In this document: positions 36,716 to 47,782 of the stretch, piece after piece
Layout of the letters: each line of letters opens with the position of its first letter
Numbering within the stretch: the stretch's first letter is position 1
Source of the DNA: an uncultured Clostridia bacterium
GTDB taxonomy: Bacteria > Bacillota > Clostridia > Peptostreptococcales > Anaerovoracaceae
Assembly (NCBI GenBank): GCA_945830395.1
Contig: CALZYE010000004.1
Span: 54,342-118,341, forward strand
Direction: 5' to 3'
DNA length: 64,000 bases
Program-made: the position numbers and the translations under genes
Notes under the pieces: model-generated
What the model saw: only the letters and a program-made list of their open reading frames with translations
Database searches by the model: none
Told to the model about the DNA's origin: nothing

Positions 36716-38197
36716 ATGGAAAAAGGTCAATTTGTAGAGCTTAGAATTGACGATATGACTGTCGACGGTCAGGGTCTGGGCAGAATGCCCGAAGGCCCGG
36801 CCGTTTTTGTGCGTGGAGCGGTAATAGGCGATGTGGTATCGGCAAAGCTGACTAAAATAAAGAGAAGATATGCCTTGGGAAAGCTGGAGAAAGTTATAGA
36901 GGCATCGGAGCACAGGCGGGAAGGCTTTTGTGACTTGCAGGAAGAATGTGGAGGATGTCCGTACGGAAAACTTACATACGAGATGCAGGCGGCGCTAAAA
37001 GAAAAACATGTAAAGGATGCACTTATAAGAATTGCGGGAATCGAGTTTCCTAAAGTTAACGAAATCGTGAAAAACCCCGTTGAATTTGGCTATAGAAATA
37101 AGGCGGTAATGCCGATTTGGACAGGCGGTATCATTACTCGAAAAGGCGGCATTGTGGAAAACCTCGGAGAGCCTTCAATCGGTTTTTATAAAGCTAAGAG
37201 CCATGAAGTCGTTGATTGCCATGTATGTATGCTACAGCCGGAGCCGGTGCGGGCAGTGTCAGAGGCGGTGCGGACCTTTATGAAAGCAGACAACATAACG
37301 GCTTATGATCCTAAGTGGGAAAAAGGTCTTATGCGCAGTGTAACTGTCAGGACCACTCCGGGAACCGGGGAAGTAATGGTTATATTTGTCATCAACGGCA
37401 AAGGCATACCAAATGCGCAGAAGTTAATTGACATGTTGGATGAGGCGGTCTGCAAATCAGGCTACTTGCTTGAGAGCGTTATCCTTAACATAAACCGTAA
37501 TAAAAAAGAAACTTACGGCGAAAGGAATATAACTCTTGCCGGAAAACCTACTATCAAGGAAACTGCAGGAGGTATGGAATTTGAAATATCACCTCTGTCA
37601 TTTTTCCAAGTGAACACTGCGCAGATGGAGAAGCTTTACGATTTGATTGCAGATTATGCAAAGCTTTCAGGTGGAGAAACCATACTGGATCTTTATTGCG
37701 GAGCAGGAACCATAGGGCTGTGGCTTTTGAACTCCTTGAGGCATCGGATGAAAAACGGAGATGTTTCGGAAAAAGCTTTTAGTGACACAAGAGTAATAGG
37801 GATTGAATCTTCCAAGAGCTCTATACTTGATGCCAACCGCAATGCCGTCATAAACGGATTCGTAAATGCAAGATATGTGCGTGGAAAATCCGAAGAAGAG
37901 CTTCCAAAACTTATGGGAGAAGCGCTGCTGAAAGATGAAGCCTTGCGGATAAAGGCGGCAGACTTGGTGATTTTGGACCCACCGAGATCAGGCTGCCGTG
38001 AGGAACTGCTGAAAACCGTTTCGGATGCATGTCCTGAAAAAATTGTGTATGTGTCCTGCGACCCTGCCACCATGGCGAGAGATATTAAGCTTTTGGCAAA
38101 ACGAGGATACGCTTTTGTTGAGGCGACTCCGGTCGACATGTTCAGCTGGACCGGGCATGTGGAGTGCATAGCGTTGATACAAAGAGTGAAATCGTGA
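36716..38197 (+). CDS. rlmD: 23S rRNA (uracil-5-)-methyltransferase, RlmD/RumA family with TRAM domain
   Basis: TRAM N-terminus; LDLYCGAGTIGLWL; LDPPRSGCREELL; YVSCDPATMARD; C-terminus VDMFSWTGHVECIALIQRVKS. Confidence 0.93.
   Translation: MEKGQFVELRIDDMTVDGQGLGRMPEGPAVFVRGAVIGDVVSAKLTKIKRRYALGKLEKVIEASEHRREGFCDLQEECGGCPYGKLTYEMQAALKEKHVKDALIRIAGIEFPKVNEIVKNPVEFGYRNKAVMPIWTGGIITRKGGIVENLGEPSIGFYKAKSHEVVDCHVCMLQPEPVRAVSEAVRTFMKADNITAYDPKWEKGLMRSVTVRTTPGTGEVMVIFVINGKGIPNAQKLIDMLDEAVCKSGYLLESVILNINRNKKETYGERNITLAGKPTIKETAGGMEFEISPLSFFQVNTAQMEKLYDLIADYAKLSGGETILDLYCGAGTIGLWLLNSLRHRMKNGDVSEKAFSDTRVIGIESSKSSILDANRNAVINGFVNARYVRGKSEEELPKLMGEALLKDEALRIKAADLVILDPPRSGCREELLKTVSDACPEKIVYVSCDPATMARDIKLLAKRGYAFVEATPVDMFSWTGHVECIALIQRVKS
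38156..38172 (+). repeat. 17-bp direct repeat, left copy (putative att site inside the rlmD 3' end)
   Basis: CATGTGGAGTGCATAGC, identical to 40098-40114. Confidence 0.85.
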
Positions 38198-38355
38198 AAA
38201 TCCTGTATTTTAAGCAGTTTTACAAGCATTATGTATTTGTAGAAGATGGCGAAGGTGGACGAAAAAAAGTCCTAAAAAATTATATAGATGTGAATGTTTG
38301 CATTGATATGGTGTGTGGAGATACAAAGGATGAATTGGGAAGTGAGAAATAAGAA

Positions 38356-40071
38356 ATGACTAAATTAAAAGGGAAGAAGTTTGAGATAGACGGAAAGATA
38401 TGTACACTTCTTAAACATTTAAAGGATGGAGGGAATTCCAGTGTTTGGATTGCAGAAATTGATAGTAAAAAATTTGCTGTAAAAATTTTAAATGAAGAAA
38501 GTGATAATAAGAAAGAACGCTTTAAAAAAGAAGTAGAGTTTTGTAAAAATGCCAAACATGATAATCTGATTCCAATATATTCGCATGGAGAAATCAATAA
38601 CAAACTTTGTTATGTAATGGAACTTTATGATAAAAATTTAGCGGATTTGATAGAAATTGGAATTAGCTTTGAAAAAGGTTTTAATTATATATTTCAGATT
38701 TGTAGCGCACTTGAGTTCCTTCATAACCAAAATGTAATTCATAGGGATTTGAAACCTGAAAACATTTTGGTAGAGAAAGATAAATTGGTTTTAGCAGATT
38801 TGGGAATCGCTCATTTTGAAAACTCGTCAATAACCAGTAAAGATGATTTGCTAGCAAATAGAGGATATGCTGCTCCAGAACAAAAAATAAAAGGTTTGTC
38901 AAAGGATACAACTACAGCTGTGGATATATTTTCATTAGGATTGATAATGAATGAAATTTTTACTAGCAAAAAACCAGAAGGATCTAATTTTGCTTTAATA
39001 TCAGATATATATCCTTGGTTAATCGATGTTGATGGATTAGTAGAAAGATGCACGAGACAAAATCCTGCGGAACGACCAAACATTAAGGAAGTTTCACTTG
39101 AACTAAAGCTTAAGTTTAATGAATTGAAAGATGAGATAACTTTAATTAAAGAGAATTTAGAAGAACATTTCGAGGAATTAGATTCAAGCATGGATTGTGA
39201 TAGTGAAATAAAAGAAAAAATTATTAAACAAGCATCAAACGATATTTTGACTGCAAAGTATTTTTTTGAGAATAAAACTACACAAGAACTGGAAAAATAT
39301 AATCATAATTATCATTGCAATGTACATTACAAACTTGATACAGGTTTGAGAAGAGATTACATGAAATATTTATTAAAGAAGCGATGTAAAAGGACTTTTT
39401 TGTATGAGAGCAGTGTATATAAAAATGGTTATAAGTATGTACCATTAAATTTGGATGATAATCCTGAAGATAAAAAACTTTATGAAAAATTTTCTTCTTT
39501 TCTTAAAGACAATTCTATTGTTGATGGAGAACTGCTAAAACTATTTTCTTCTTGTTGTAATTATCATTGTGAAGAGATAATTCAAGATTTAGATGAGATT
39601 CAAAAAGAGGTAGAGAATTTAGATGATGCCCCAATATTATATATTGTCATGCATATTATAAATATTAAGGATAATAATGGTGATATATCTTGCGAGAATG
39701 AAATTTTAGTAAACTGGGAAGAGAGTATATCGAATTATGATAACAATAGTATTTATATGGGACTATTAAAAAAAGATAATCGTGAAAAAGAAATAGAAAA
39801 AGTTTTGAATGCATTTATTAAAAATTATAATGCAGTTGTTACTAAGAAAGATAACGGCTTTTTGGTTAGATTTGAAAACGGGAAATTATATAACGATTTT
39901 AAAAAATATGCATTAGAACTATCAGAGCAATATTATATATTTAATGGGGATGTACTTGATTTAGTTAGAGTAGAAAAAGAATATGATGGAATCATTGAAT
40001 TAAAATTATGGAATTCATTTGATATAAAGAATACTTTAGCCAAGATTGTGGGATTTCGGAAAGATTATTAA
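38356..40071 (+). CDS. Cytoplasmic Hanks-type Ser/Thr protein kinase with ~300-aa uncharacterised C-terminal region
   Basis: KFAVKIL (lysine), VIHRDLKPENILV (HRD loop), LADLGIAHF (DLG metal site), GYAAPEQ; no TM or PASTA domain. Confidence 0.88.
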   Translation: MTKLKGKKFEIDGKICTLLKHLKDGGNSSVWIAEIDSKKFAVKILNEESDNKKERFKKEVEFCKNAKHDNLIPIYSHGEINNKLCYVMELYDKNLADLIEIGISFEKGFNYIFQICSALEFLHNQNVIHRDLKPENILVEKDKLVLADLGIAHFENSSITSKDDLLANRGYAAPEQKIKGLSKDTTTAVDIFSLGLIMNEIFTSKKPEGSNFALISDIYPWLIDVDGLVERCTRQNPAERPNIKEVSLELKLKFNELKDEITLIKENLEEHFEELDSSMDCDSEIKEKIIKQASNDILTAKYFFENKTTQELEKYNHNYHCNVHYKLDTGLRRDYMKYLLKKRCKRTFLYESSVYKNGYKYVPLNLDDNPEDKKLYEKFSSFLKDNSIVDGELLKLFSSCCNYHCEEIIQDLDEIQKEVENLDDAPILYIVMHIINIKDNNGDISCENEILVNWEESISNYDNNSIYMGLLKKDNREKEIEKVLNAFIKNYNAVVTKKDNGFLVRFENGKLYNDFKKYALELSEQYYIFNGDVLDLVRVEKEYDGIIELKLWNSFDIKNTLAKIVGFRKDY

Positions 40072-40076
40072 TTATA

Positions 40077-40139
40077 GATATGTTTCCACAGGCGCATCAT
40101 GTGGAGTGCATAGCACTTCTGTCTAAAGTAAAGGTCTAA
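40077..40139 (+). pseudogene. Second rlmD-like C-terminal remnant at the right island end
   Basis: Encodes DMFPQAHHVECIALLSKVKV*, parallel to the intact C-terminus DMFSWTGHVECIALIQRVKS*. Confidence 0.75.
40098..40114 (+). repeat. 17-bp direct repeat, right copy
   Basis: CATGTGGAGTGCATAGC, identical to 38156-38172. Confidence 0.85.
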
Positions 40140-40188: not shown

Positions 40189-40221
40189 AAAAATAACCAC
40201 TCGTAAAGAATGGTTATTTTA
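40189..40221. terminator. Bidirectional terminator
   Basis: AAAATAACCA-CTCGTAAAGAA-TGGTTATTTT stem-loop with flanking A/T. Confidence 0.65.
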
Positions 40222-40480
40222 ACTTATCAAAAACATCAGATTTAGTAAGATGAATGGAAGAGTTGGAAGCAATTGTGTCTGCTTCATCAAGAGCATACTC
40301 AATGTCAAAGTATTCAAGTAGCCGCTTTATGGTATCCTGACCATCATAACAAGTATCGATCAGATAACCGGGTTCATTTAAAAATTCCTTTAATCCACGA
40401 TAATAAAAGTATTTCTTCTTATCTTCAATGATAGATGTAAGTAAATTTTGTATATCAGTATAAACAACATCAACAAGCAA
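40214..40480 (-). CDS. Hypothetical protein, 88 aa
   Basis: MLVDVVYTDIQNLLTSIIEDKKKYFYYRGLKEFLNEPGYLIDTCYDGQDTIKRLLEYFDIEYALDE...; not shadowing another gene. Confidence 0.45.
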   Translation of the reverse strand: MLVDVVYTDIQNLLTSIIEDKKKYFYYRGLKEFLNEPGYLIDTCYDGQDTIKRLLEYFDIEYALDEADTIASNSSIHLTKSDVFDKLK

Positions 40481-40608
40481 AAAAGTAGACAGTGAATGGC
40501 GTAATATGGTAAAATAAAATGTCTTTGCCTAAAAGGAGTGTAATATCTTTTGTCGATAAAAAAACATATATGAGGCAATGAAATTATGTTAAGAGGAGTG
40601 ATGTGTTG

Positions 40609-42654
40609 ATGAATAATCAAGTGAAAAGAAAATTTAAAAAACTAAATATTGCTTTTTTTGCTCTTATGTTTTTAATAGGTAATTTAATAGGGAGTTTTAC
40701 AACAAATACAGCCTATGCAGCCGGTAGTGCCGATAGTAATGTAACCTCTTTTACTGTTTCTCCAAAAGAGGTTGCTGATGCCGGTCAGGTAGAGGTAAAA
40801 ATAGAATTTTCAGAAGTTAATAACAGGAAACTCCAAAAAGGTGATACCATAGAACTTAATTGGACAAACGAAAGCAATCTATATTTACAAGGTTACAAGG
40901 GAAAAGTAGATATTAATGATGAGAAGTCAGGTAAAAAAATAGGAGAATTAGTAGTTGAACATGGTAAAGCAACTATTACTTTTGATGATGTGGTAGAGAA
41001 ACTTGAGGATGTTAAAGGATGGGCAAAATTTAATCTTTTGGCCAGAAATTTAGCTGATACAACGGAAGAAAGTGTTAGAACTGCGTATGTTTATGCAGGT
41101 GGCCGTAGTGAATCCGTTAATATTAAAAAATCAGCTTCAGGCAATGAATCTGTTTTCTATTATAAAACAGGTCGTAATGATGTTAACGAAACAAACCGTT
41201 TGTATTGGTGGTTGACAGTTAATTTAGGTAAAAAACATGCTGAAGAAGATGTCAAAATAGAGGATGAAATACAAGAAGGTCACGCTTTAGTGCCGGATAG
41301 TTTTGAGATTACTATCGATTATCATGACAATTACACTAAAAGAATTAAAGGAAAAAATGCTTTAAATGAATTTATAAGTCAATATCCGGGTTCAAATATT
41401 AGTGTAAACGGAAATAAAATTAAAGTATTTATTCCTAAGGAACATGTAAGTAACAATAATATTGATATTTTTTACAAAACTGAGATTACAAATTCTTCGC
41501 AAGAATGGTTTCAAAATAATTCCAAGGCATGGTATAAGGAGTGGGGTGAACCTAAAGTAGAAGGGGGAATATTTAATCATAGTGTACAAAAAGCCAATAT
41601 TTCTGCCGGTGCTATAGGTACGGTTAGAGGTGATTTAAAAGTTACAAAAACCGTTGATGGAACAGATATAGGAATCCCCGGGGTCGTCTTTGAATTAGTA
41701 AGGGCAGATGGAGGAGATATTCGAACAGGAGAAACGAAACTCATTTTAATAACTGATTCTAAGGGAATAGCATCTATTAGAGGTCTTGCAATAGGGGCTT
41801 ATAAATTGAAGGAAATTGATGCTCCTGAATGGATTGATTTTGAACCGTTAAAGGCTCCTGTAAAGGACTTTAATATAAAAGCCGATGATACAAAAGGAAT
41901 TAACTTAGGGGTGACAAATAAGAAAAAAGTTATTTCTATTAATGGTTCTAAAACATGGAATGATAATAAGAACCAGGATGGGAAAAGACCAAATGAGATA
42001 AAGATAAATCTCTTTAAGAAGGTGGGAGATGGCGAGTTAGCCAAGGTAGAAACCAAGACTATAAAAGAGGACACTGACGGAAACTGGAAGTGGAAATTTA
42101 GCAATTTAGAAGAATATGACAATAATGGTAATAAAATTACCTACAGTATCACGGAAGATGAAGTGAAAGGCTATACTTCCAAAGTGGAAGGATACAATGT
42201 AATTAATACTCATACACCGAAAAAGACGAGTGTGCAGGTAACAAAGGCTTGGAAAGATAAGAATAACCAAGACGGAAAGAGACCTGCAAGTGTAACAATC
42301 AAGTTATTGGCAGATGGAGAAGAAGTAAATGGAAAGACTTTAACTCTAACCGCTGAAAATAACTGGACAGGAAGATTTACAGACCTTGACGAATACAAGG
42401 TAGGAAAGAAGATTGAATACACTATCAAGGAAGAGCCTGTAGGAAATGGATATGTAGGCGTCATTACAGGTTCAGCAGAAGACGGCTATGTTGTTACTAA
42501 TGTAAGAAAACCGAACACACCACCGGAAAAACCAAATAAAGAATTACCAAAAACGGGAGATGGAAGCAATATATTCCTATATGCTTTATTAATGTTAACA
42601 TCAGGAGCATTACTGTCGCTTATTGGATATAGACGCAGAAAACATGCTAAGTAG
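40609..42654 (+). CDS. Cell-wall-anchored collagen-binding-type adhesin with SpaA/CnaB domains and LPKTG sorting signal
   Basis: Signal peptide; adhesin domains; VVFELVRADGG...YKLKEIDAP (SpaA-like); CnaB units GSKTWNDNKNQDGKRP and VTKAWKDKNNQDGKRP; C-terminal LPKTGDGSNIFLYALLMLTSGALLSLIGYRRRK. Confidence 0.92.
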   Translation: MNNQVKRKFKKLNIAFFALMFLIGNLIGSFTTNTAYAAGSADSNVTSFTVSPKEVADAGQVEVKIEFSEVNNRKLQKGDTIELNWTNESNLYLQGYKGKVDINDEKSGKKIGELVVEHGKATITFDDVVEKLEDVKGWAKFNLLARNLADTTEESVRTAYVYAGGRSESVNIKKSASGNESVFYYKTGRNDVNETNRLYWWLTVNLGKKHAEEDVKIEDEIQEGHALVPDSFEITIDYHDNYTKRIKGKNALNEFISQYPGSNISVNGNKIKVFIPKEHVSNNNIDIFYKTEITNSSQEWFQNNSKAWYKEWGEPKVEGGIFNHSVQKANISAGAIGTVRGDLKVTKTVDGTDIGIPGVVFELVRADGGDIRTGETKLILITDSKGIASIRGLAIGAYKLKEIDAPEWIDFEPLKAPVKDFNIKADDTKGINLGVTNKKKVISINGSKTWNDNKNQDGKRPNEIKINLFKKVGDGELAKVETKTIKEDTDGNWKWKFSNLEEYDNNGNKITYSITEDEVKGYTSKVEGYNVINTHTPKKTSVQVTKAWKDKNNQDGKRPASVTIKLLADGEEVNGKTLTLTAENNWTGRFTDLDEYKVGKKIEYTIKEEPVGNGYVGVITGSAEDGYVVTNVRKPNTPPEKPNKELPKTGDGSNIFLYALLMLTSGALLSLIGYRRRKHAK

Positions 42655-42700
42655 AATTGGTAGAAGCCAAACAAAGAAATAGAATAAATGGAGATTCAAA

Positions 42701-42749
42701 AACAGGAGGACATCTTATGCCTAAGCACAGAAGTCCTCCTGTTTTATTC
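42701..42749 (+). terminator. Rho-independent terminator after the LPKTG adhesin
   Basis: AACAGGAGGAC ... GTCCTCCTGTT followed by TTATTCT. Confidence 0.8.
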
Positions 42750-43183
42750 TCAGAAACAAAGATAGAGAGTATAAAAAAGAACACACATTTAACCTAAATT
42801 ATTATTTCGGTATATTAGGTTACTATTGTTACTATAAAATGGTACAATGAATAAAAGAAATTGTAGGGATACTTATGTGCATTACAGCGAAGTAAATTGT
42901 CGCAAAACTGACTGATGAAAGAATATAAAAAAATAAGGAAGACATTGTTACTAAGCTTGGTCTTTTTTCGGAAACTTGACTTATATTTATCTATTTTGGA
43001 TAGGTAAATTAGAAGCTTAAGAAGAAATCTGTCACAATATTCTTTGTCACTTCTATGGCAGTCATTTCGGGGTTTGTTATGATACCATATAGGGCTCAAA
43101 GAAAAATTCTTACATCATCCGTAAGTGTTATTTTAATTCGTTTCATACTAAAATTAGAATAACAAATCATGGAGGTGTCATAC

Positions 43184-43957
43184 ATGGAAACAATTTTAAG
43201 AGTAGAATCGTTAAAAAAGTATTACGGAAAAGAGCCCGGTGTAACAAAAGCTTTGGACGGCATATCTTTTCAGGTCATAAAAGGCGAGTTCTTGGGCATC
43301 ATGGGAAGCAGCGGATCAGGCAAAACCACACTTCTCAACTGTCTTGCCACAATAATTAAGCCGACTGACGGTTTGATTCAGATGCAAAATCAGGACTTGA
43401 GCAGGCTGAAAGGCGGTCAATTAGCCGATTACAGAGGGAAGGAAATCGGATATCTGTTTCAGAATTTTGAACTTTTGGATAACCTGACAGCAAAAGAGAA
43501 TATTTTGCTTCCGTTGGCTTTGCACAATGTAGATGAGAGAGAAAGCAAAAGAAGGTTGGAGCTTCTTGCAGGATATTTGGATATTTCTCAGCTTCTTAAC
43601 AAATTTCCTTCTCAGATGTCAGGCGGTCAAAGGCAGAGAGTGGCTGCTGCGCGAGCCTTGATTTTAGACCCTGAAATTGTATTTGCCGATGAACCTACCG
43701 GAGCATTGGATTCAAAAAATGCAAATACTTTGATGCAGAAGCTGTCTGCAATGAATGAAATGGAAAACACAACAATTCTTATGGTTACTCACGATTCGGT
43801 GGCGGCAAGCTTTTGCAATCGGATATTATTCATCAAGGACGGAAAATTGTTCCACGAAATAAGACGGGATTATCCGAGAGAAACCCAAGAGGATTTTTAC
43901 CGGAGAATATTGAAAGTCATGTCAACACTTGCCGGAGGTGATCTCAATGTTTTCTAA
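43184..43957 (+). CDS. ABC transporter ATP-binding protein, BceA-like
   Basis: GSSGSGKTTLLNCLATI, MSGGQRQRVAAARAL, VFADEPTGALD; RBS GGAGG before 43184. Confidence 0.92.
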   Translation: METILRVESLKKYYGKEPGVTKALDGISFQVIKGEFLGIMGSSGSGKTTLLNCLATIIKPTDGLIQMQNQDLSRLKGGQLADYRGKEIGYLFQNFELLDNLTAKENILLPLALHNVDERESKRRLELLAGYLDISQLLNKFPSQMSGGQRQRVAAARALILDPEIVFADEPTGALDSKNANTLMQKLSAMNEMENTTILMVTHDSVAASFCNRILFIKDGKLFHEIRRDYPRETQEDFYRRILKVMSTLAGGDLNVF

Positions 43958-46001
43958 GTTAGTTGAAAGAAACAGCAAGAGGGACAGAAAAAACAACGGT
44001 TTATATTTCGGTTCCATGATTATATCCATTATTGCCTTTTACATTATTCTTTCGCTATCTCACCAAGATGTTATGCTCTTCTTAAAAAAGATGGAGAGCG
44101 ATGCGGTAAACAGACTGTTTGCCATAGTTCCGATTTTTTACGGAGCAACCTTGGTAATGCTGTTCTTTTTAGTATATTTTGCAAGCAGTATGCAGATGGA
44201 AAGAAGAAAACACGAGTTCGGTATTTATCTTACGCTGGGAATGCGTAGAGGGAAGCTGTTTTCAATGCTCCTGCTGGAAGACTTCAGAAACAATATAATT
44301 GCTCTTGGGATCGGACTTCCGGTTGCTGTGGCGATTTCAGAATTAATCAGTCTGATAACAACAAAAATAGTGGGACTTGGTATTATAAGCCACAGATTCT
44401 CGCTGTCGTTTATGGCTGTATTATTTACGGTTATAGGTTTTTTAGCTGTAAAATTCGTGGCATTTATATTTTTGAGTGGAAAGACAGCGAGCAAAGAAAT
44501 CGGAGAACTTATCACATATTCTCCTGCCGGAATTAAAAAAATGCTGCCTAAGGGGATTTATGTACTTGCTTCCGTCCTTGGAATTTTGCTTCTTGCAAAG
44601 ACATATCATTATGGAATAAGCGGCGAAGCCTGGGACAGCCCGAGAAATATGGGAATTACAGTTATATTAGGAGGCATAGGAACGGTTTTGCTGTTCTTCG
44701 GAATGCGTCTTATCATAGGCGTTTTGATGAATTTCGGCAGTAAAAGAAAGCTGCATACATATAATTTCAGACAAATTCAGGAATTGGTTATCAATCGCTC
44801 CGCTGTGCTTGCCCTTTGCTCCCTTTTGATTTTCTCTGCTTTGTGTTTGTTTGGAGCAGGCGTTGCAATCTCAGTTAATAGTGCAAGTAATCGGGAGCAT
44901 GTCTTAGACTATACATTCAAGGATGAAAACCTTGAAGGAGGCAAAGGCATTGATGCGGGCAAAGTGAGAAAACAGATTGCAGAAGCAGGACTTAAGCCGT
45001 ATTTTTCGAGAATAATCGAAATTAAAATAGGAGATCCAAAGGATGAAGGTAAAGTATCCTTTGAGAATATAGCAAACGAATTGAAAGACTCAAAGGACAG
45101 CAAAAATAGAGAAATCCTGATTAACAATTTCGAGCAGTTAAGTGATTGTCAGTTGATTTCTCTTTCAGGGTATAACGAATTGAGAAAGGCTGCAAATTTA
45201 AAACCTGTAGATTTAAGGGAAGACGAAGCCTTTTTATACATGGGCAGGGATTTTTTAATCGACGAGACTTTGATGAATAATGTTGTTAAAACAAATCCTC
45301 AAATCAAAGTTATGGGAAAAATTTTGAAAATCACGGGAGATGTTCAATCATTGCCCGTTGTAACTGACCGTGAAATAACGCTTGCGGAGGCTTTGGTGGT
45401 TTCTGACAATATTTTCATGGAATATACGGGAGGCAGATATTCAAGTTATGTCAGCGGAATCTTAGCACCTGACTTTGTTAAAGAAAAAGGGTTGATGCGA
45501 GCCATCTCCGATATTAATGAGAAGCTTAATGAGACTTTACTCAAATACGAAAGTTATTTGCAGAATATGGGAAGACAGCTGTTTTTCATTATTTCCGCAA
45601 GCTATATCACAATTTATCTTGCAATTGTTTTTCTTGTAATCGCAAATACAATAATCGGCGTGCAGTTTTTAATGGGACAAAGAAAATCGTACAGACGGTA
45701 TCAAACCTTGATACATCTTGGCGCCGGTTATGAGACTCTTTGCAAATCATCGGAAAAGCAAATCAACTGGTATTTCGGCTTACCGATAGCTATCGCTCTT
45801 GTAAACAGTTTTTTCGGGGTGCAGTCGCTGTTTACGGGGATTTTGCCCTCCGGTATAAAGGTGAACATGGCGCAGGAACTTATAATTGCAGTTCTTATGA
45901 TACTGTTATTAGGGGTGTTTGAAGTCATCTACATGAGAATTGTAAAGAGAAACAGCAATAAATATTTGCTGTCATTAATGGAACCGAAAAGAGAAGAATA
46001 G
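43947..46001 (+). CDS. FtsX-family ABC permease, BceB-like
   Basis: Long multi-pass permease with large extracellular loop; GAGG before ATG 43947; overlaps the ATPase gene. Confidence 0.9.
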   Translation: MFSKLVERNSKRDRKNNGLYFGSMIISIIAFYIILSLSHQDVMLFLKKMESDAVNRLFAIVPIFYGATLVMLFFLVYFASSMQMERRKHEFGIYLTLGMRRGKLFSMLLLEDFRNNIIALGIGLPVAVAISELISLITTKIVGLGIISHRFSLSFMAVLFTVIGFLAVKFVAFIFLSGKTASKEIGELITYSPAGIKKMLPKGIYVLASVLGILLLAKTYHYGISGEAWDSPRNMGITVILGGIGTVLLFFGMRLIIGVLMNFGSKRKLHTYNFRQIQELVINRSAVLALCSLLIFSALCLFGAGVAISVNSASNREHVLDYTFKDENLEGGKGIDAGKVRKQIAEAGLKPYFSRIIEIKIGDPKDEGKVSFENIANELKDSKDSKNREILINNFEQLSDCQLISLSGYNELRKAANLKPVDLREDEAFLYMGRDFLIDETLMNNVVKTNPQIKVMGKILKITGDVQSLPVVTDREITLAEALVVSDNIFMEYTGGRYSSYVSGILAPDFVKEKGLMRAISDINEKLNETLLKYESYLQNMGRQLFFIISASYITIYLAIVFLVIANTIIGVQFLMGQRKSYRRYQTLIHLGAGYETLCKSSEKQINWYFGLPIAIALVNSFFGVQSLFTGILPSGIKVNMAQELIIAVLMILLLGVFEVIYMRIVKRNSNKYLLSLMEPKREE

Positions 46002-46068
46002 AAGAATGCGGGAAGAATGGAGAAGGCAAAAATCGGAATTTTAAAAACCATGGGAAGAAGGAACTGAT

Positions 46069-46791
46069 ATGAAGCGTATTTTGGTAATCGAAGATGAGGT
46101 TTTAGTTAGAGATGAGATTGCAATATTGCTGGAGAAAGCCGGATATCAAGTTGATAAAATAACTGATTTTAAAGAAACATCCCGGCAGATAATAAAATAT
46201 AAGACGGATTTGGTTATACTGGATTTGAACTTGCCGGGAGAAACAGGCTTTCAAATCTGCAAAAATCTGAAATCCGCATCTTCTGTGCCCATACTGATTC
46301 TTACTTCCCGTGAACAGCTAAAAGATGAAGTCTATGCCTTGAAGTTAGGGGCGGATGAGTATTTGACAAAGCCTTTCAGAAGTGAAAGGCTTTTGGCGCG
46401 TATAGAAAATCTGTTGAAACGCTATGAGGGAAGAAATAATCTGCTTGAAAAGGATAACTTCCTGCTGGACAGAAACACATACACACTCTATATCGACGGA
46501 AATTCAATTTTGCTTCCTAAGAATCAGGGAAAGCTGTTAGAAACTCTGCTGATGTCGGGCGGCAGTGTGGTGACAAAGGAAGAACTAAGCATGAAGCTAT
46601 GGAATACCTTTGAATTTATTGATGAAAATGCTCTTCAGGTGAATATCACAAGACTTAAAAAGGTGATTAGGGAAGCGGGAATTGCTCTTGAAGTTAAATC
46701 TGTAAGAGGCATAGGCTACAGGCTGAAAGGTTCGGATCTGAAAGATAAGGATGAGAATAAGGTGAATGAGGTGAGTAGGGATGAAGAATAA
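46069..46791 (+). CDS. OmpR/BceR-like response regulator
   Basis: ILVIEDEVLVRDEI...LVILDLNLPGETGF...LILTSR...GADEYLTKPF + winged-helix C-terminus. Confidence 0.93.
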   Translation: MKRILVIEDEVLVRDEIAILLEKAGYQVDKITDFKETSRQIIKYKTDLVILDLNLPGETGFQICKNLKSASSVPILILTSREQLKDEVYALKLGADEYLTKPFRSERLLARIENLLKRYEGRNNLLEKDNFLLDRNTYTLYIDGNSILLPKNQGKLLETLLMSGGSVVTKEELSMKLWNTFEFIDENALQVNITRLKKVIREAGIALEVKSVRGIGYRLKGSDLKDKDENKVNEVSRDEE

Positions 46792-47782
46792 TATAAGATA
46801 TTTAGAGGCGTACATACCCTGGCTGCTCCTTCTTCTGGCATTCGATATATTTACAGCCATATTGCTTTGGCTCTCGGATGTCAGGATATTTCAGTCCCTT
46901 TTCGTTCTTTTGATTTTAACCACAGTGATACTGTTTTCATTTATATCATTTGTGCTTGCAGGAAAAGAAAGGAAAAAAGAGGATGCATACCAAGCGTTTG
47001 TATTGAATCCAGAGAAAAATACTGAGCTGGAACTGCTGCGGTTATGCAGTAGGGCAGAAAGAGAAAGAGTCAAAGAGATAGCGGAGGCATTTTACAAAAG
47101 GCAGGCAGAGACGGAAAAGGTGAAATCCCTGTTGTCAGAATATGAGGAGTATGTTGAAATGTGGGCTCATGAGATAAAATCACCTCTTTCACTTCTTTCT
47201 CTGGTTTTGAAAAATCAAAATGAAAACCTGTCGAAAATCACCGCATTTAAATTGGACTATGCAAAAAGTCAGATTCAGGAAAATGTATCGCAGATTTTAT
47301 TCTATTACAGGGTGAAAAGCGATAAAAAGGACTTTCTATTTGAAGATATTGATTTGCGGGAGAGCATATATGAGGTTTTGGAGAATTTTAGGCCTTTGCT
47401 GGAAGAAAAGAATTTCAAAGTAAAGAAAGATGATATATGTGGAACAATCTATACAGATTACCGCAGCTTAGAATTTATAATTTCTCAAATAATTGCAAAT
47501 GCAGTTAAATACAGCACAGAAAATCCTATGCTCAGCATTTCAACGGGAAAGGACGGCAATCGGAGAGTACTTGCAATCAGGGATAACGGCTGCGGGGTCA
47601 AGGCTTGCGATCTTCCCCATGTGTTTGAAAAGGGATTTACCGGAGACTCCGGAGATACGAGAAAAAAGTCGACGGGCATGGGGCTGTACCTCGTAAAGCA
47701 GTTGGCAGATCCTCTTAAAATAGATATTGAGGTGAAGTCTGAATTTATGAACGGATTTGAGATTTTGTTGAAATTTGTCTAA
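46781..47782 (+). CDS. BceS-like intramembrane-sensing histidine kinase
   Basis: Two TMs with a short loop; EMWAHEIKSPLSLLSL (H box); IANAVKYS (N box); DNGCGVKACDLPHVFEKGFTG; GMGLYLVKQL. Confidence 0.93.
   Translation: MKNNIRYLEAYIPWLLLLLAFDIFTAILLWLSDVRIFQSLFVLLILTTVILFSFISFVLAGKERKKEDAYQAFVLNPEKNTELELLRLCSRAERERVKEIAEAFYKRQAETEKVKSLLSEYEEYVEMWAHEIKSPLSLLSLVLKNQNENLSKITAFKLDYAKSQIQENVSQILFYYRVKSDKKDFLFEDIDLRESIYEVLENFRPLLEEKNFKVKKDDICGTIYTDYRSLEFIISQIIANAVKYSTENPMLSISTGKDGNRRVLAIRDNGCGVKACDLPHVFEKGFTGDSGDTRKKSTGMGLYLVKQLADPLKIDIEVKSEFMNGFEILLKFV

Follow-up and report, generated by a model that had tools for sequence, protein, structure and literature searches.

The window, a 64,000-nucleotide stretch from an uncultured Clostridia bacterium (contig CALZYE010000004.1), contains an intact rlmD (rumA) gene followed by a single large gene for a Hanks-type kinase. 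The 17-mer CATGTGGAGTGCATAGC lies across the 3' end of rlmD and recurs exactly behind the kinase gene (Table 1). An earlier note on this DNA had described these repeats and the AT-rich interval of about 1.9 kb between them, with essentially one gene and no recombinase, and both descriptions are confirmed. No third copy of the 17-mer occurs in the window at up to three mismatches (shuffles expect 0.09) or in the whole 1.78-Mb genome at up to two mismatches, and a chance origin of the repeat is therefore rejected. The kinase gene is poor in GC (27.6%) compared with rlmD (46%) and with the window as a whole (40%), and no integrase or recombinase, relaxase, or conjugation gene accompanies it between the two 17-mers.

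Table 1. Features at the rlmD locus (positions in the window).
Feature	Position	Strand	Evidence and remarks
rlmD (rumA), intact	36716..38197	+	TIGR00479 rumA, E 1e-98; last codons from 38164 element-supplied
Left 17-mer, attL junction	38156..38172	+	crossover placed inside CATGTGGA/G, 38156-38163 host side; 37 distinct junctions
Left end of rumA-type ICE family	38164..38359	+	97-98.5% identity to ICE left ends of G026 and G039
Cargo Ser/Thr (Hanks-type) kinase, 571 aa	38356..40071	+	Pkinase E 1e-35; orthologue in Pseudoramibacter alactolyticus
Right rlmD-like tail, DMFPQAHHVECIALLSKVKV and stop	40077..40139	+	RlmD-tail profile E 1e-8; arm unlike same-genus rlmD
Right 17-mer	40098..40114	+	exact-repeat search

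The left junction is best understood by comparison with other insertions in rlmD. From within CATGTGGA onward, 204 bp match, at the identity given in Table 1, the left ends of rlmD-inserted elements in Eubacterium infirmum (G026) and Peptostreptococcus canis (G039). A scan of the genome collection finds this ICE left end at 34 loci, predominantly at rlmD/RumA-type 3' ends, in Anaerococcus, Peptoniphilus, Streptococcus (including S. suis, S. oralis, and S. anginosus), Mogibacterium, Peptostreptococcus, and other genera. Across 37 distinct junctions, the host side is variable and the element side is near invariant, even past the bases used for the search. The last rlmD residues, CIALIQRVKS before the stop, recur at these 37 junctions across many Firmicutes and are therefore supplied by the element; a native origin of the left tail is rejected on the same grounds. 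The boundary between host and element falls inside CATGTGGA/G, with the downstream half of the left 17-mer being element DNA, and the host arm upstream, GACATGTTC-GCTGGAC-GGGCATGTGGAGTGC, fits the genus, with genome G013 nearest. The left junction is a serine-recombinase attL with a new rlmD tail swapped in. Like rumA-type ICEs and IMEs, the unit is inserted near the 3' end of rumA/rlmD and has exchanged the C-terminus, and like a CIME it retains attL. The site-specific integration proposed in the earlier note thus holds, with a C-terminus that was replaced and still leaves the frame open, but the foreign C-terminus is the left one, not the right one. Since HVECIA is encoded on both sides, the 17-bp identity extends past the true crossover; in other attL/attR pairs, two to three bases are different across the equivalent 17 bp.

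The P. canis ICE measures about 54 kb from left core to right core and carries a relaxase (PF03432). Its right end lies inside the gene of a large serine recombinase with Resolvase, Recombinase, and zinc-ribbon domains. When the two ends are joined in a script, the recombinase gene becomes uninterrupted, completed by 60-odd residues encoded in the left end. The left-end ORF stub of the window (to 38352) corresponds to this C-terminus in the excised form of the ICE and is the only piece of an integrase left in the element. The kinase ATG at 38356 is 3 bp past the stop codon of the stub, where orf1 of the ICE begins. ICEs with this left end are rumA/rlmD-specific serine-recombinase ICEs of a Tn1549/CTn5-like kind. 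Published rumA ICEs support the statement that the rumA/rlmD 3' end is a known integration site in streptococci (PMC4701971; PMC5357655), and the same exchange of the target-gene C-terminus is described for them (PMC4701971). Similar left ends also follow serine recombinases with no more than 25-29% identity to that of P. canis in Anaerococcus ihuae (L139) and on the A. prevotii plasmid pAPRE01 (L148), so that diverged recombinases seem to share the attachment arm. The P. canis recombinase shares 66% identity with its rumA-type counterparts in other hosts. The draft genome that contains the window yields five serine-recombinase matches, the best of which has 39% identity to the P. canis recombinase, and none close to the rumA-type enzymes. 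The kinase unit therefore has no evident cognate enzyme in this genome at present.

The right end has a different architecture. The tail begins 5 bp past the kinase stop codon, and in the window its match to the RlmD-tail profile is second only to that of rlmD itself, which bears out the earlier description of a second RlmD-type C-terminus. The order on this side is TTATA and GATATGTTTCCACAGGCGCAT (DMFPQAH in the rlmD frame), the core, and then ALLSKVKV and a stop codon. The right copy is rlmD-like on both sides of the crossover (DMFPQAH/HVECIA). Typed rlmD genes of the same genus have Gly directly before the HVE-type motif, not QAH, and the arm upstream of the core is for this reason foreign to the genus. 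In the canonical attR of P. canis, recombinase-gene DNA is followed by CATGTGGA and then by the displaced host tail. The window likewise shows a core with an rlmD-like tail behind it, but what precedes the core resembles rlmD and not the ICE right arm; by comparison with the right ends of P. canis and E. infirmum, the right copy is not a plain ICE attR. The TTATA upstream of the tail is not rlmD sequence and matches the right ends of other rlmD islands. These islands end in a conserved module in which a palindrome is followed by (T)TATAGATATGTTCCCACATACG and, directly or after a spacer, by the core. The right end of the window resembles the second half of this module, with the palindrome itself missing. 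With moderate confidence, sequence resemblance points to the right copy being an element-borne end that mimics rlmD; alternatively, it would be a relic of an earlier host tail.

Other genomes carry single cargo genes downstream of rlmD, including a 205-aa SAP-domain protein, TfoX_N, a CAAX protease, and others (L177 in G133, L176 in E. infirmum, L178 in G099, L180/L197 in G050). Behind each of them, at a distance of a few to about 50 bp, lies a conserved module of roughly 85 bp in which the palindrome TTTTAACGATA-N9-TATCGTTAAAA precedes an rlmD-like GATATGTTCCCACATAC. All exact palindromes are confined to the stretch behind rlmD in three genomes, in arrays of 1-4-kb units, and looser copies lie away from it in G099 (764365) and G199 (1141977). 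In G199 (L078/L157), the ICE left end is immediately preceded by three tandem rlmD-like arms (GATATGTTyCCg..), reminiscent of fossil rlmD tails stacked up one after another. The rlmD of G099 hosts a 2.4-kb recombinase-less mini-island with the same left end, encoding an alpha/beta hydrolase and a 207-aa protein. In the window itself, an 88-aa ORF on the minus strand (40214-40480) matches only the last 50 positions of the PADLOC candidate defence model PDC-S04 (E 2e-11), and is thus a defence-type gene fragment immediately right of the second 17-mer. Farther right (40603-47782) is an LPXTG-anchored Cna_B/SpaA-type surface protein and, by eye, an ABC exporter pair with a two-component system resembling peptide-antibiotic resistance operons.

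The kinase contains the motifs HRDLKPEN, DLG, and APE, and its C-terminal region of about 360 aa matches no family. The PADLOC models of the anti-phage kinases PD-T4-6, Stk2, and MAD6 match the kinase domain only (E 1e-44 to 1e-25), and MAD6 scores 96.9 bits against an NCBIfam cut-off of 460. The C-terminal half is absent from 394 other genomes of the order and the whole kinase from 390 other genomes of the class. The kinase is thus otherwise rare, and the possibility that it belongs to the core genome of the order or the class is rejected. Searches of viral contigs return neither the kinase nor the left-end pattern, and searches of phages and plasmids do not return the C-terminal half. A promoter scan stays at chance level, and an AlphaFold model from a two-row alignment is unusable (mean pLDDT 41). 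We would guess that the protein is an accessory kinase, possibly in phage defence.

The same unit of core, left end, and full-length kinase (569 aa) resides in the rlmD of Pseudoramibacter alactolyticus ATCC 23263 (L141). Along their entire 1.9 kb the two units are 79% identical in nucleotide sequence, and the homology ends at the kinase stop codon. The kinases are 70% identical in amino acid sequence, the RlmD proteins 29%. Occurrence of the unit in the rlmD of two such distantly related bacteria indicates that it moved horizontally. The dN/dS of the kinase is 0.24, and the gene is under purifying selection; a functional gene has thus spread horizontally together with this left end. In P. alactolyticus the kinase is followed at the same 21-nt spacing by DIFLWMSHAETVVWRARR and a stop codon, a tail that is weakly RlmD-like (E 0.59 alone), and the left-end stub carries small indels. 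That a second family has the unit speaks more for a genuine minimal element than for mere decay in the present genome. Same-genus genomes have ordinary rlmD ends with other tails and no element, and the ICE left end is absent from all other same-genus genomes searched. The earlier note had asked for empty sites in relatives, and these exist; an arrangement in which all relatives carry the kinase with no empty site did not occur. The DNA downstream of rlmD in relatives has no match to the window, so that no nucleotide-exact empty site can be drawn for the right flank.

The locus is probably (about 60%) a minimal, non-autonomous, CIME-like element, in which a single cargo gene is flanked on the left by the end of a rumA/rlmD-specific serine-recombinase ICE and on the right by an rlmD-like end. 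The kinase occupies the position of the first ICE gene, right behind the recombinase C-terminal stub. For excision and insertion, a complete ICE in the same cell would provide the recombinase, acting in trans at CATGTGGA/G, and the unit may be transferred along with the ICE or with chromosomal DNA. Counted against such an element are the lack of a recombinase close to the rumA-type enzymes among the matches in the genome, the right end, which is not a canonical ICE right end, and the weak RlmD likeness of the tail in P. alactolyticus; no excision product was seen, and the empty sites come from same-genus genomes, with no conspecific one among them. More tentatively, and as a doubtful extension, rlmD ends may generally host recombinase-less cassettes of one to few genes with an ICE left end and an rlmD-mimicking right end, often the palindrome TTTTAACGATA-N9-TATCGTTAAAA followed by GATATGTTCCCACA. 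Moved in trans by ICE serine recombinases, they would form stacked, integron-like arrays, of which the kinase unit would be the smallest member seen.

Decay offers another origin, although a rather unlikely one. A complete ICE whose first gene was the kinase would have inserted in rlmD, and all DNA from the kinase stop codon up to an older rlmD-like relic would later have been deleted, leaving a dead unit; the two species would then represent independent decays of related kinase-bearing ICEs. CIMEs arising by decay are well known (PMC5704250), and the rlmD loci of this ICE family are full of stacked ICE remnants. The indels in the P. alactolyticus stub and the missing rumA-type recombinase fit as well. 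Independent deletions sit poorly, however, with homology that is lost exactly at the kinase stop codon in both species with an rlmD-like tail directly after it, with purifying selection on the kinase, and with the finding of no kinase-carrying ICE among the left-end loci examined. Still less probable is that rlmD was replaced by homologous recombination with kinase-carrying donor DNA, or partially duplicated, in which case the current rlmD and attL would be the donor's and 40077-40139 an older rlmD stump. The rlmD likeness on both sides of the right crossover would be explained, HVECIA coding by itself can yield the 17-mer, and in G133 the arm of the resident rlmD is found a second time behind the gene. 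Yet it is the left arm that fits the genus and the right arm that does not, so the current rlmD looks native, and the TTATA shared with other islands is foreign to rlmD.

A minimal CIME-like element of this kind suggests that, through the rumA/rlmD attachment system of ICEs, one accessory gene can pass between distant hosts with no mobility gene of its own. The junctions also show that in many Firmicutes the RlmD C-terminus is encoded by a mobile element and not by the host. The exact ends and the donor ICE family given here are usable for testing trans-mobilization of one-gene units. Elements of this general kind are known; the one-gene kinase unit is new among them.

The cargo resembles the anti-phage kinases PD-T4-6, Stk2, and MAD6 in its Hanks-type domain and mobile context, and differs in its unmatched C-terminal 360 aa and in a MAD6 score far under the cut-off. 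With the rumA-specific single-serine-integrase ICEs and IMEs of Streptococcus and CTn5 of C. difficile, the kinase unit shares the target gene, a crossover in its 3' part, exchange of the C-terminus, and a direct repeat of the 2-21-bp kind (PMC4701971; PMC5357655), and with the streptococcal elements also the left-end sequence itself. Unlike them, it has no integrase, relaxase, or conjugation genes, is 1.9 kb long and not tens of kb, and ends on the right in rlmD-like sequence instead of an integrase gene. CIMEs, or cis-mobilizable elements, keep their attachment sites, have lost integration and transfer genes, and accrete in tandem at one locus (PMC5704250). The kinase unit is alike in lacking these genes, in its retained attL, and in tandem accretion at the same locus, whereas it differs in a right site that is not a recognizable ICE attR, in its single cargo gene, and in the occurrence of one unit in two distant hosts.
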